This document shows, piece by piece, positions 16,005 to 20,346 of a stretch of 64,000 bases of DNA. The notes below the pieces were generated by a model that was not told the DNA's origin, did not search any database, and worked only from the letters and a program-made list of their open reading frames with translations. The stretch spans positions 1-64,000 of the forward strand of contig JALCBJ010000008.1 of NCBI GenBank assembly GCA_028066595.1. Reading direction: 5' to 3'. Origin of the DNA: Thermoanaerobaculia bacterium (GTDB taxonomy: Bacteria > Acidobacteriota > Thermoanaerobaculia > Multivoradales > J023). A program made the position numbers and the translations under genes. The first letter of the stretch is position 1. Every line of letters begins with the position of its first letter.

Positions 16005-18740
16005 TCAATCCGACAATCGGACGACCAATTGACTTCCCTGGGCCTGAACACCCTGGATACTCACGGAATCCGACCGGAGATCGAAGACCAACCTCAACTC
16101 TTTGCCGGGGTGGAATCCCACTCGAATCTGCTGCAGGTGACTTCCGCGCCCCGCGATCACGGTCTGCTCGAAGTTGTCGAATCCCAGCAGCGTCACCATC
16201 TCTCGATCGGGCGCCCATGACAGCTGATCATGGGTGTACTGGCCGCTACGGATCTCGCCGTTGAGGTGGACGATGACATCGGTGCTACCGCTCCCCGGAA
16301 CCACATCGATGCTCTCGACCCTCCTTGCGGTGCCGGCGGCGGAGCGTGAGCCACCGGTCTCACGGGTCGTCGGCGGTGCTCGCGACTGTGTCTCCGCCGG
16401 CGGCGGATCGACGGTCCCGGACGGCGGCGAATCGCCACCCGTAGACGAGGGACGCAACGATTCAGCACTCGCTTGGGTCACCGCTCCACCATCACTCGAG
16501 TCCGACGAAGTCTCCGACTCGGAATCGGTCCCCACAGCGGCTTCGGGATCGATCCCGTTCCCTGGATCGGGCTCCGCTACTTCGACCGGTTCGGCGAGCG
16601 GATCGTCGGGCGGCGAATAGGTCTCGACCTCCTCGTCGCTGGAGGTCGCGTTGTCCAAGGTTGGCGGCGGGTCGGTCGAAGTGGCGGTGCCGCCACCGAA
16701 CCCGATCATGGGCAAGAGGGTCGATCTAAAAAAGAAGCTCGCCCCGCCGACGACGGCCAGGAGCACCACGACACCGATCAGCATCTTGGTGCGGCTACCC
16801 GATCCAGTGGGGTGAGGCGCCCATTCTTCCCAGTCGTCGTATGAATGCTGAAGGTCTTCGCCCTCGGTGGTCGGTGCCTTGGCCCCCATGACGGTATCGC
16901 TGAGATCCGGCAAAGCTCCGCCGCGGAGCGAGGCCGTCTCTTCCGGATCCAGAGCGGGTTGGGCGTCCGGCGGTCCTCGAAAAGCGAAAAGATCATCCGC
17001 CGTATCCGTACTTCGTTCCGAGGCAGCGACCGGGGCCGATGGTTGAGGCTCTTCTGCACCTTGCAGTTGTTCGTCCAGTTGCCCTGCCAACGCACTGGCC
17101 GCGATCGATTCCGGTGTCGAGACGTCCGGCAGATCAGCCACGGGTGCCAAAGGCGTTTCGAAGGAGAACCCCGCTTCGCCACCTTCTTGTGCCACAGATT
17201 CGGTTTCTGCCGGTGGTTCGAAGGCAAATCCGACATCGGGCGTCGCGGAAGCAGAACCTGTGTCGGTCTCCGCTGGCGGCTCGAAGGCAAATCCGACATC
17301 GGGCGTCGCGGAAGCAGAGCCTCCCTCGGTCTCCGGTGGCGGCTCGAAGGCAAAACCGACATCGGGCGCAGCCGATACAGACGCTTCTTCGATCTCCGCC
17401 GGCTGAGCTGTGGCATCTTCTGTCTCCGTTGCTTCGAACGAAGCGACCGGCTCAGGCTCGGTTCGTTCGAAATCCGGAGCGAGCTCCGCTTCCCCTGCGG
17501 AGTCGGCCCAAGCGCTACCGGCGCCATCCCCGACATCCGCAGGCGGAATCACCTGGCTGTCCGAATCTTCTCCGAACTCGACGTCGAAGGCTCCAGCGCT
17601 CGAAGCGCTACCGACGAACGTCGGCTCCTCCGGTCCGAGCTCTGGCACGCGGGCAGGTGCAGCGGTATCCGTGCCAGATGTCTGAGACGGCTCCGCTGGC
17701 ACCGAGGCCTCGGAGGGTTCCTCGGCCGCGGCAGCGGCCGGTTGGCTGTCGGGCAGCTGAAACAACGTACCGTCCACTTCGGGCACCGAGTCGCCGTCGA
17801 AGTCGGTAAAGGGGATGCTGCCTTGGGCTTCTTGCAGGGTCGTGACCCCACCCACCGGTTTGATCTCCGGCGCAGGGTCTTCCTCCTCCGTATCCCAGGC
17901 CGAGGCGCCGAAGTCGGTCTCGTCGAGGTGCGGATCGCCATCGTCCACAGGTGGCTCGAGCGCGAGGTCCGCCGACTCGGTCTCGTCGTGGGTCTCGTCG
18001 TGCGGACCCGATCCCGGAGCATAAGGAGATTCCGGCGCTTCCACCGCGGGAACGCTCGGCCCGCCACCACCCGTCGCCTTCGGCTCGGTCAGGAGCTCAT
18101 CGGGAATCTCGGGTAACTGTTCACCCCAGGGCGCACTGAAATCGGCCTCATCCTCGGGAGGCGGGAGCACCCCGGGTGGCAGATCCGGCAGACTCTCGCT
18201 GTCGTCCAGATCCGTGGCAATAGGCTGTTGCGCTGGCCGCGATCCCGTCTTTGCCTGCTGCGCAGCGGCGTGCTCCTCCTCACTCGGACCCGCGAGCGCC
18301 TGGACCACGGTCGGGTCGATGCTGCCGTCTTCTGGAACACGGTCGACCTCGAACGGGGCGCCCCCACTCTTCACCTGCTCTTCCAGTAACTTCAGGACCA
18401 GCTCGCGGCCGCTTTCGTCGAGAGAGAGAAATCGCAGCCCCATACCTTTTGGCCGCTCGCCCGTCATCGTCTTGAGACGTACCCAGACGACCTCGGCCAA
18501 GCCATAGAGCAATCGATAGCCGTCCTGCAAGCGAAAGTCCAGATAGACCTCGGAGCCGACTGGACGCAACAGTTCGGTATCGACGAATGCACCGCCGAGA
18601 GAGATTCGCGAACGATAGAGGTCGACAAAGTCCTGGAACTTGTCGAAACGTTTCTTGATATGTGCGTTCTCGGGTAGCTCCCGAGCACGCGAGCCGGTCT
18701 CGATCCGCAGATCGGACTGGTTCGTAAGATCGTCGGACAT
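16005..18740 (-). CDS. PilZ-linker-TM-AMIN fusion protein
   Basis: A 911-residue protein. Residues about 28-140 form a PilZ domain of the type common in myxobacterial and related proteins ('RISLGGAFVDT', 'KGMGLRFLSLDESG'), a fold that can bind cyclic di-GMP. The canonical [D/N]xSxxG motif appears here as RISLGG and the RxxxR site is degenerate, so binding is uncertain. Residues about 145-645 are a low-complexity acidic, Pro/Ala/Glu/Ser-rich linker with 21-residue tandem repeats. One TM segment lies at about 650-668 ('LIGVVVLLAVVGGASFFF'). After a Ser/Thr/Pro-rich periplasmic spacer, residues about 806-911 resemble an AMIN domain ('IDVVPGSGSTDVIVHL', 'ELRLVFDLRSD'), the peptidoglycan-targeting domain of PilQ and AmiC. 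The layout suggests a cytoplasmic sensor coupled to the cell wall. Confidence 0.7.
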   Translation of the reverse strand: MSDDLTNQSDLRIETGSRARELPENAHIKKRFDKFQDFVDLYRSRISLGGAFVDTELLRPVGSEVYLDFRLQDGYRLLYGLAEVVWVRLKTMTGERPKGMGLRFLSLDESGRELVLKLLEEQVKSGGAPFEVDRVPEDGSIDPTVVQALAGPSEEEHAAAQQAKTGSRPAQQPIATDLDDSESLPDLPPGVLPPPEDEADFSAPWGEQLPEIPDELLTEPKATGGGGPSVPAVEAPESPYAPGSGPHDETHDETESADLALEPPVDDGDPHLDETDFGASAWDTEEEDPAPEIKPVGGVTTLQEAQGSIPFTDFDGDSVPEVDGTLFQLPDSQPAAAAAEEPSEASVPAEPSQTSGTDTAAPARVPELGPEEPTFVGSASSAGAFDVEFGEDSDSQVIPPADVGDGAGSAWADSAGEAELAPDFERTEPEPVASFEATETEDATAQPAEIEEASVSAAPDVGFAFEPPPETEGGSASATPDVGFAFEPPAETDTGSASATPDVGFAFEPPAETESVAQEGGEAGFSFETPLAPVADLPDVSTPESIAASALAGQLDEQLQGAEEPQPSAPVAASERSTDTADDLFAFRGPPDAQPALDPEETASLRGGALPDLSDTVMGAKAPTTEGEDLQHSYDDWEEWAPHPTGSGSRTKMLIGVVVLLAVVGGASFFFRSTLLPMIGFGGGTATSTDPPPTLDNATSSDEEVETYSPPDDPLAEPVEVAEPDPGNGIDPEAAVGTDSESETSSDSSDGGAVTQASAESLRPSSTGGDSPPSGTVDPPPAETQSRAPPTTRETGGSRSAAGTARRVESIDVVPGSGSTDVIVHLNGEIRSGQYTHDQLSWAPDREMVTLLGFDNFEQTVIAGRGSHLQQIRVGFHPGKELRLVFDLRSDSVSIQGVQAQGSQLVVRLSD
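17161..17400 (-). repeat. 63-bp in-frame tandem repeat in the PilZ-AMIN linker
   Basis: Three close copies of a 63-bp unit begin at 17221, 17284 and 17347 on the plus-strand coordinates, and a fourth, diverged copy begins at 17161. Each encodes a 21-residue unit around 'PDVGFAFEPPxET'. The first two copies are nearly identical at DNA level, which suggests recent duplication or slippage. Confidence 0.85.
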
Positions 18741-18782: not shown

Positions 18783-19388
18783 CTAGTCCGTACCGGTCGG
18801 GGTCCATTCAGGCTCGTCATCAGCCCCGAGACCGTCGGCGAGGCGATTGTAATAGCTGAACAACGCCGTCACCTGGACGATGTCATGAATCCCCGTATCG
18901 GTGAATCCTACCTTACGGAGCTCGTCGACATGATTCTGACGAACTTGGCCGGGGTGCAACGTCAAGAGCTCGACGAACCGAAGCATGGCCTCGTCGGCAA
19001 GACCCAAACGAGCCTGACGCCAGTCGCTACCGATGGCCTGCAACCATTCGTCGAAATCCCCCGACACGACGCCGCCTTCGGTCCCGTCCTCTCGCTCTGC
19101 TGCGACCTCGGCCCGGAGGTCGTCGAGATGGGCCCGTGTTCAGTAGTGACACGCGTTGAGGCGAGATACGACGACCGCGATCATCTCTCGGCGCGCCCTG
19201 CTCAGGGGGCTCCTCGGTGAGCGCATGACTTCCGTATATAGCTGAGTCGAGGCTCTCAACGTCTCAGGACGTGGACTCTGGATCCGGATGACCTGATAAA
19301 CCTTGCCCGCCCTCTTGACGGCGGCGTCGTATAGACGCTTCAGAAGTCCGGTCGCTTCGGATGGATCCGTCGTCTGGATGAATGGCAT
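18783..19388 (-). CDS. AhpD/CMD-fold peroxidase-like selenoprotein (TGA read as Sec)
   Basis: Reads as a 201-residue alkylhydroperoxidase-like (carboxymuconolactone decarboxylase superfamily) protein if the in-frame TGA at 19142-19140 is decoded as selenocysteine. The part before the TGA ends 'AVVVSRLNACHY'; cysteine members of this family have CxxC here ('SRxNxCHYC'), so the TGA sits exactly at the second redox Cys, giving C80-H81-Y82-U83. The frame stays open without shift through 'RAHLDDLRAEV' to the family's C-terminal half ('LLTLHPGQVRQNHVDELRKVGF', then 'FSYYNRLADGLG'). A SECIS-like hairpin begins 17 bases after the TGA. Expected role: reduction of peroxides through a selenenylsulfide or disulfide. 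The alternative, a nonsense mutation in a pseudogene, is less likely given the motif position and the hairpin. Confidence 0.82.
19103..19142 (-). promoter_or_regulatory. UGA codon and bacterial SECIS-like hairpin
   Basis: On the minus strand, TGA (19142-19140) is followed by a 7-bp perfect stem, CGACCTC (19122-19116) with GAGGTCG (19109-19103), closing a 6-base loop CGGGCC (19115-19110). The loop begins 25 bases after the TGA, and G is the second base of the loop. Bacterial SECIS elements are hairpins with a small G-containing apical loop about 16-37 bases past the UGA, bound by SelB. The fit is by eye, not from a folding program. Confidence 0.7.
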
Positions 19389-19433: not shown

Positions 19434-19883
19434 CTACGGATGTGTGACGTCGAGGGTATACGTGACGACTTCATCCGGGAAGATGTTGCCCACGTCGAAG
19501 ATGCAGACGCAATAGTCCCCTGCCACCAACGAGGGGCTCTGCAGGATGGTGGAACGAGTGACGGAGGAGTCAGAAGCGAAGAAGCTACAGCCGTCGGCCG
19601 CCGCTTCGTCCGGAGTACCGATACCCATACCCAACGTCAGCGTTTCGAGTGGCCCCAGGTCAGCAAGCTCGATGTCGATGTCGCCGGTCAAGCTCGTCAT
19701 GAAGCCGTGGCAGTCCGTCTCTCCCAGCTCCAGATCCCCTGAGAACACCTCGGTCACCCGTTCCACTTCCACTACTTCTTCCTCGACCGGAGCCGTCGGG
19801 CTCTCGTACTCGCTGCAGCCAGCGATCCACGGTGCAAGCGTCAGCCACAGTGGAAGGAGGCACACTCGAATCGTTCGGCTCAT
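19434..19883 (-). CDS. Small lipoprotein, paralogue 1
   Basis: A 149-residue predicted lipoprotein with signal peptide and lipobox 'WIAGC' (C23). It continues with a short Ser/Pro/Glu spacer and a beta-rich domain of about 110 residues ending 'VTYTLDVTHP'. The next gene upstream encodes a similar protein (shared 'SPTAP/SPTGP' after the Cys, a Cys-containing central strand, a 'YCVCIFDVG/YFCVILYDSG' segment, and a C-terminal 'YxxxLxVxxP'). The two look like tandem duplicates. The domain resembles bacterial pre-peptidase C-terminal/IPT-type beta-sandwiches only in general pattern. Function unknown. Confidence 0.6.
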   Translation of the reverse strand: MSRTIRVCLLPLWLTLAPWIAGCSEYESPTAPVEEEVVEVERVTEVFSGDLELGETDCHGFMTSLTGDIDIELADLGPLETLTLGMGIGTPDEAAADGCSFFASDSSVTRSTILQSPSLVAGDYCVCIFDVGNIFPDEVVTYTLDVTHP

Positions 19884-19926: not shown

Positions 19927-20346
19927 CTACGGATCGACGACCAGAGTGAATTGGTAGGTCGAATCGGCGAGAAATGCGCCGGAGTCGTACAAGATCACGC
20001 AGAAGTAGCCGGTTCTGAAGAGCTCGAAAGCGAAACTGTCGCCAACAGACATCGAGTCCACGAACGTCGCAACGCAACTGTTCTCGGACACCTCACCGAG
20101 ACTGAAACCAACGGACGGTTCGGGAATCGAGAGACCTCCCGTCACGTCGACCAGAATCGGCGTCAGCTCTGTGAGCGTCACTCGAATGACATCCTCCGCC
20201 GTATCAAAGAAGAAGGTCTCCGAACCCAAGGAAGACAGAGTGCCGCTGAAGTAGATCGGTTCGCTCCCGGGACCCGTTGGGCTGTCGGAGCAGCCCAGGA
20301 CACCAAGTGAAGCAATGAGGATCAGTAACGTCTTGATGGGGTTCAA
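19927..20346 (-). CDS. Small lipoprotein, paralogue 2
   Basis: A 139-residue predicted lipoprotein; lipobox 'GVLGC' (C19), then a Ser/Pro/Gly spacer and a beta-rich domain ending 'YQFTLVVDP'. It is paralogous to the next gene downstream (43 bases apart, same strand), so the pair is probably one transcript produced by local duplication. The central segment 'FRTGYFCVILYDSGAFLADS' aligns with the equivalent Cys-containing strand of its neighbour. No catalytic residues are recognisable; it probably sits on the periplasmic side of a membrane. Confidence 0.6.
   Translation of the reverse strand: MNPIKTLLILIASLGVLGCSDSPTGPGSEPIYFSGTLSSLGSETFFFDTAEDVIRVTLTELTPILVDVTGGLSIPEPSVGFSLGEVSENSCVATFVDSMSVGDSFAFELFRTGYFCVILYDSGAFLADSTYQFTLVVDP

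Follow-up and report, generated by a model that had tools for sequence, protein, structure and literature searches.

A predicted AhpD-like selenoprotein with a conserved SECIS hairpin in a Thermoanaerobaculia bacterium

A 64,000-nucleotide stretch of a Thermoanaerobaculia genome (hereafter the window) contains two minus-strand open reading frames, 19388-19140 and 19067-18783, that lie in the same frame, raising the question of whether the TGA between them (19142-19140) ends a gene or encodes selenocysteine. This TGA is the single stop from 19388 to the terminal TAG, and standard gene calling splits the gene there into two ORFs. Decoded as selenocysteine, it gives a protein of 201 residues with the motif C80-H81-Y82-U83. 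The original prediction held that the two ORFs join into one family-length protein and that the TGA falls at the second Cys of a CxxC motif. Both statements stand: the TGA is the sole interruption, a match to the TIGR01926 model spans residues 4-194, and solved relatives have Cys at the position of U83. The start region is fixed by a TAG in frame five codons upstream of the ATG at 19388, with which the starts of homologues coincide. Reading the TGA through would correct an annotation that is otherwise two fragments or a pseudogene. Coordinates of the features are collected in Table 1.

Table 1. Features of the predicted selenoprotein gene, in window coordinates.
Feature	Position	Strand	Details and basis
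AhpD-like selenoprotein, predicted complete CDS	18783..19388	minus	ATG 19388, TAG stop 18785-18783, 201 aa with Sec83
In-frame UGA, predicted selenocysteine codon (residue 83, second position of CxxU)	19140..19142	minus	TGA in 27/27 aligned
Active-site segment E68-(11)-C80-H-Y-U83-(3)-H87	19128..19187	minus	Comparison with the AhpD relay
Putative bacterial SECIS hairpin, 7-bp stem CGACCTC/GAGGTCG, 6-nt loop CGGGCC	19103..19122	minus	98.9% paired cells, compensatory changes, frozen Leu91 codon

Profile searches place the read-through protein in the AhpD/CMD fold. It exceeds the curated cut-offs of TIGR01926, 'peroxidase-related enzyme' (129.9 bits against 81.8), of TIGR00778 (40.1 bits against 27.8) and of Pfam CMD (48.3 bits against 23, residues 41-94), and it carries the CMD/AhpD core of CxxC-x3-H with an upstream Glu as E68, C80, U83 and H87. 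Its score against the model of AhpD proper, TIGR00777, is 17.4 bits, below the cut-off of 191.95. Two solved relatives of the Cys form, 6k40 and 2oyo, align across residues 11-195 and place a Cys opposite U83. An AlphaFold model of middling quality, built from only two sequences (pLDDT 70, pTM 0.72), consists almost entirely of helices, and its first PDB matches are these same entries; it supports the fold class only, because the overall rmsd to full-length PDB entries is high. We are highly confident in reading the gene as that of a TIGR01926-type, peroxidase-related enzyme of the AhpD/CMD fold, with selenocysteine in place of the second redox Cys.

The TGA is kept in relatives. Of 148 related genomes sampled, 65 have a homologue. 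In this survey and in a phylum sample, all matches scoring above 80 bits contain a TGA. Among the best matches outside the window's genome, which come from other genera and families at 46-63% identity, all 27 have TGA at the same codon, and in close relatives the frame is open on both sides of it. The prospect raised at the outset that close relatives might show a real stop or a frameshift here was thus not borne out, and the homologue alignment gave the pattern anticipated for a selenoprotein, with TGA in close relatives and Cys in the solved ones. Proteins with Cys at this site (CHWC, CAYC and others) are paralogues at a greater distance, and the window's own genome has two of them, CHWC and CAYC. 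When 65 proteins were placed in a tree built with the Sec/Cys column masked, only two changes between Sec and Cys forms were required. From this tree selenocysteine looks old and stable in the group, with uncertainty in the deep part, where branches are long.

These data bear on two trivial readings of the locus. A sequencing or assembly error that turned TGC or TGT into TGA is conceivable in a draft assembly (7.5 Mb in 228 contigs), and the original prediction had named such a read-level error as a risk; the same codon is TGA in dozens of independent genomes, which excludes this in practice and leaves it a negligible probability. The split gene call would also fit a pseudogene or two fragments, with the TGA a true stop and the C-terminal half dead or restarted at the GTG at 19067. 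Against this, the TGA is fixed across families in homologues with 40-60% identity, both halves of the gene are coding-constrained in a 27-sequence alignment, and the 72-base stretch from the TGA to the GTG, which a restart would skip, encodes the conserved residues H87, D90, L91, R92 and E94. Together with the constraint on codons and hairpin described below, which is specific to the SECIS position, this makes a dead or divided gene very improbable.

An open frame alone cannot distinguish selenocysteine from readthrough by a reassigned code (e.g. UGA as Trp or Gly) or a near-cognate tRNA. In the window, however, TGA terminates 22 of 37 long ORFs, indicating that the code is not reassigned, and solved homologues have Cys at the aligned position. 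A search of the host genome for selA, selB, selC (tRNA-Sec) and selD recovered all four: a tRNA-Sec with anticodon tca (71.7 bits), selA (452 bits), selB (324 bits, matching along the whole model) and selD (355 bits, with a CGU active site of its own). With this full machinery and a hairpin under selection, we consider readthrough by any other route highly improbable, and the in-frame TGA of the AhpD-like gene is almost certainly read as selenocysteine. Of the 148 sampled relatives, 139 have a selA match; because selA is nearly universal, its co-occurrence with the gene among these 148 does not discriminate, and selenocysteine use looks ancestral in the class. Four incomplete relatives (69-84% complete) have a Sec homologue and no selA match. 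The selD of the host genome (C115:9442-10362; also L049:1450-2480) is itself a predicted selenoprotein with the motif SLSKTCGU, so that selenophosphate synthesis would depend on its own product.

We next consider the hairpin downstream of the TGA. The element described in the original prediction, a 7-bp stem with the 6-base loop CGGGCC beginning 17 bases downstream, is present at 19122-19103. By the bSECISearch criterion the apical loop should lie 16-37 nt past the UGA and have G as its first or second base; the loop CGGGCC, at +25 to +30, lies in this range and has G in second place. Comparable hairpins arise by chance: across the window, 2% of TGA triplets are followed by an equally long one in the same spacing range with Watson-Crick pairs, and 13% when G-U pairs are allowed, and synonymous recoding of the region yields one in 5-15% of trials. 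Taken alone, the hairpin of the window is for this reason weak to modest evidence, and the family decides. The folding free energy of the 42 nt after the UGA did not differ significantly from that of synonymous versions (mean z of -0.54 for Sec and -0.55 for Cys forms), and an Rfam scan of the hairpin region gave no match.

We therefore turned to an alignment of the window's sequence with those of 26 close relatives, 27 distinct sequences in all. In it, 98.9% of stem cells are paired, compared to 28-50% when the partners are slid by 1-3 columns. The stem co-varies through compensatory changes: its outermost pair is G-C in 13 sequences and C-G in 12, and another pair is C-G in 20, U-A in five and U-G in two. 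The covariation score exceeded that of all 500 shuffles, a control that ignores the relatedness of the sequences. The inner six-pair stem is intact in every sequence, against 3.4 expected from synonymous codons at the codon usage of the window. The codon for Leu91 is CTC throughout, whereas three to six different codons occur in each of the remaining conserved Leu columns. Glu94 is likewise GAG in all 27, but so is E68, a conserved Glu outside the hairpin, and the Glu94 codon alone is consequently no evidence for selection on the SECIS. The retained stem, its compensatory changes and the frozen Leu codon argue clearly that the hairpin is under selection and that its conservation in relatives is not due to chance. 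Such a set of SECIS elements with compensatory changes would be useful to train and test SECIS finders.

Because the element lies in frame, its pairing may also constrain the protein. We are evenly divided on whether the SECIS dictates protein sequence here, in an order that would also stand out for an unusually large number of Sec-CMD paralogues. If it does, the need of the RNA stem to pair may couple residue switches around the DLR and E[V/I] motifs: the residues that precede DLR and follow E[V/I] may switch together (Asp with Ala, Glu with Gln or Pro), and the change from Val to Ile may be coupled to a GAT codon for Asp90. Nature would then offer a clean example of amino-acid co-variation driven by RNA structure beside an active site.

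What would the protein do? We propose that SelB carrying Sec-tRNA-Sec binds the hairpin, whose stem opens 17 nt past the UGA, and that selenocysteine is thereby inserted at residue 83; such insertion in the cell, which we infer, would produce the full 201-residue protein. A Glu68/His87 relay would then activate the Sec83 selenolate, which would most likely attack a hydroperoxide to form a selenenic acid; Cys80 would resolve this to a selenenyl-sulfide, and an external thiol system would reduce it. The likeliest function would be that of a thiol-dependent hydroperoxide reductase in which selenocysteine makes the attack. The peroxide substrate, catalytic order and reductant suggested here are drawn from AhpD and from selenoenzyme chemistry, and we hold the direct-peroxidase step, attack on hydroperoxide by Sec83, to be somewhat probable. 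On this model, peroxide handling is the target of an apparently working selenocysteine system in the lineage.

The comparison with AhpD of M. tuberculosis, whose relay consists of Glu118, Cys130, His132, Cys133 and His137 (PMC3141380), bears on this step. Although distant in sequence, this protein (1gu9, 1knc) aligns its Glu118, Cys130, Cys133 and His137 with E68, C80, U83 and H87, and its His132 corresponds to Tyr82, a position at which PA0269 also has Tyr. Selenocysteine could alternatively serve in a CxxU thiol oxidoreductase, in an adaptor for an AhpC-type peroxiredoxin or on a non-peroxide substrate, and not in a direct hydroperoxidase. In M. tuberculosis, AhpD serves AhpC as an essential adaptor (PMC3141380), members of TIGR01926 are named merely 'peroxidase-related', and the CMD fold also covers the Bmp8 debrominase and sestrin, both among the weaker fold matches of our model. 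The Glu-Cys-x-x-Cys(Sec)-His relay of AhpD is nonetheless retained, albeit with Tyr at 82 for His132, and none of the gene's neighbours in the window (a PilZ protein and small lipoproteins) recurs within 1.5 kb of homologues. The lack of a recurring neighbour argues against an adaptor or oxidoreductase and means that gene context gives no functional clue. We regard such a role as possible but rather doubtful.

As the original prediction recognized, AhpD-like selenoproteins are a known type; here one occurs in a new bacterium. Sargasso Sea data yielded 27 sequences of the CxxU type (Zhang et al. 2005, PMC1088965), such members were also found in Global Ocean Sampling data (PMC2398784), and 'AhpD-like protein, TIGR01926, CxxU' is an entry in a 2026 catalogue (PMC13188914). 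The predicted protein shares with TIGR01926 CxxU AhpD-like proteins the family model, the CxxU motif, a single Sec and a SECIS just downstream of the UGA; it differs only in its host lineage and, possibly, in belonging to the particular CHYU/DLRxEV clade. The solved Cys forms 6k40 (D. radiodurans), 2oyo, 3c1l, 2pfx and 2prr have the same length, fold and active-site arrangement, with Cys in place of Sec83. We also considered NF041238 (AhpD_rel_CFYUT, an alkylhydroperoxidase-related selenoprotein), which shares the CMD core with C-x-Y-U-T, and rejected membership: the match reaches 47 bits against a cut-off of 175 and is confined to the model's C-terminal part (positions 211-334 of 357).

The relatives hold further TIGR01926 Sec clades, of the HHGAGLR, HHRRGLRRLL, SHAEFLR and CVFU types, often two per genome and with downstream hairpins that differ between clades. 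Around the gene in the window, two small lipoprotein-like ORFs lie in tandem on the minus strand (19434-19883 and 19927-20346); neither has a Pfam match, and they are weakly similar to each other (28% identity, E 2e-4 in a single comparison). On its other side, a 911-aa PilZ-domain protein (16005-18740, minus strand) carries several near-identical PDVGFAFEPPxET units in its low-complexity middle.
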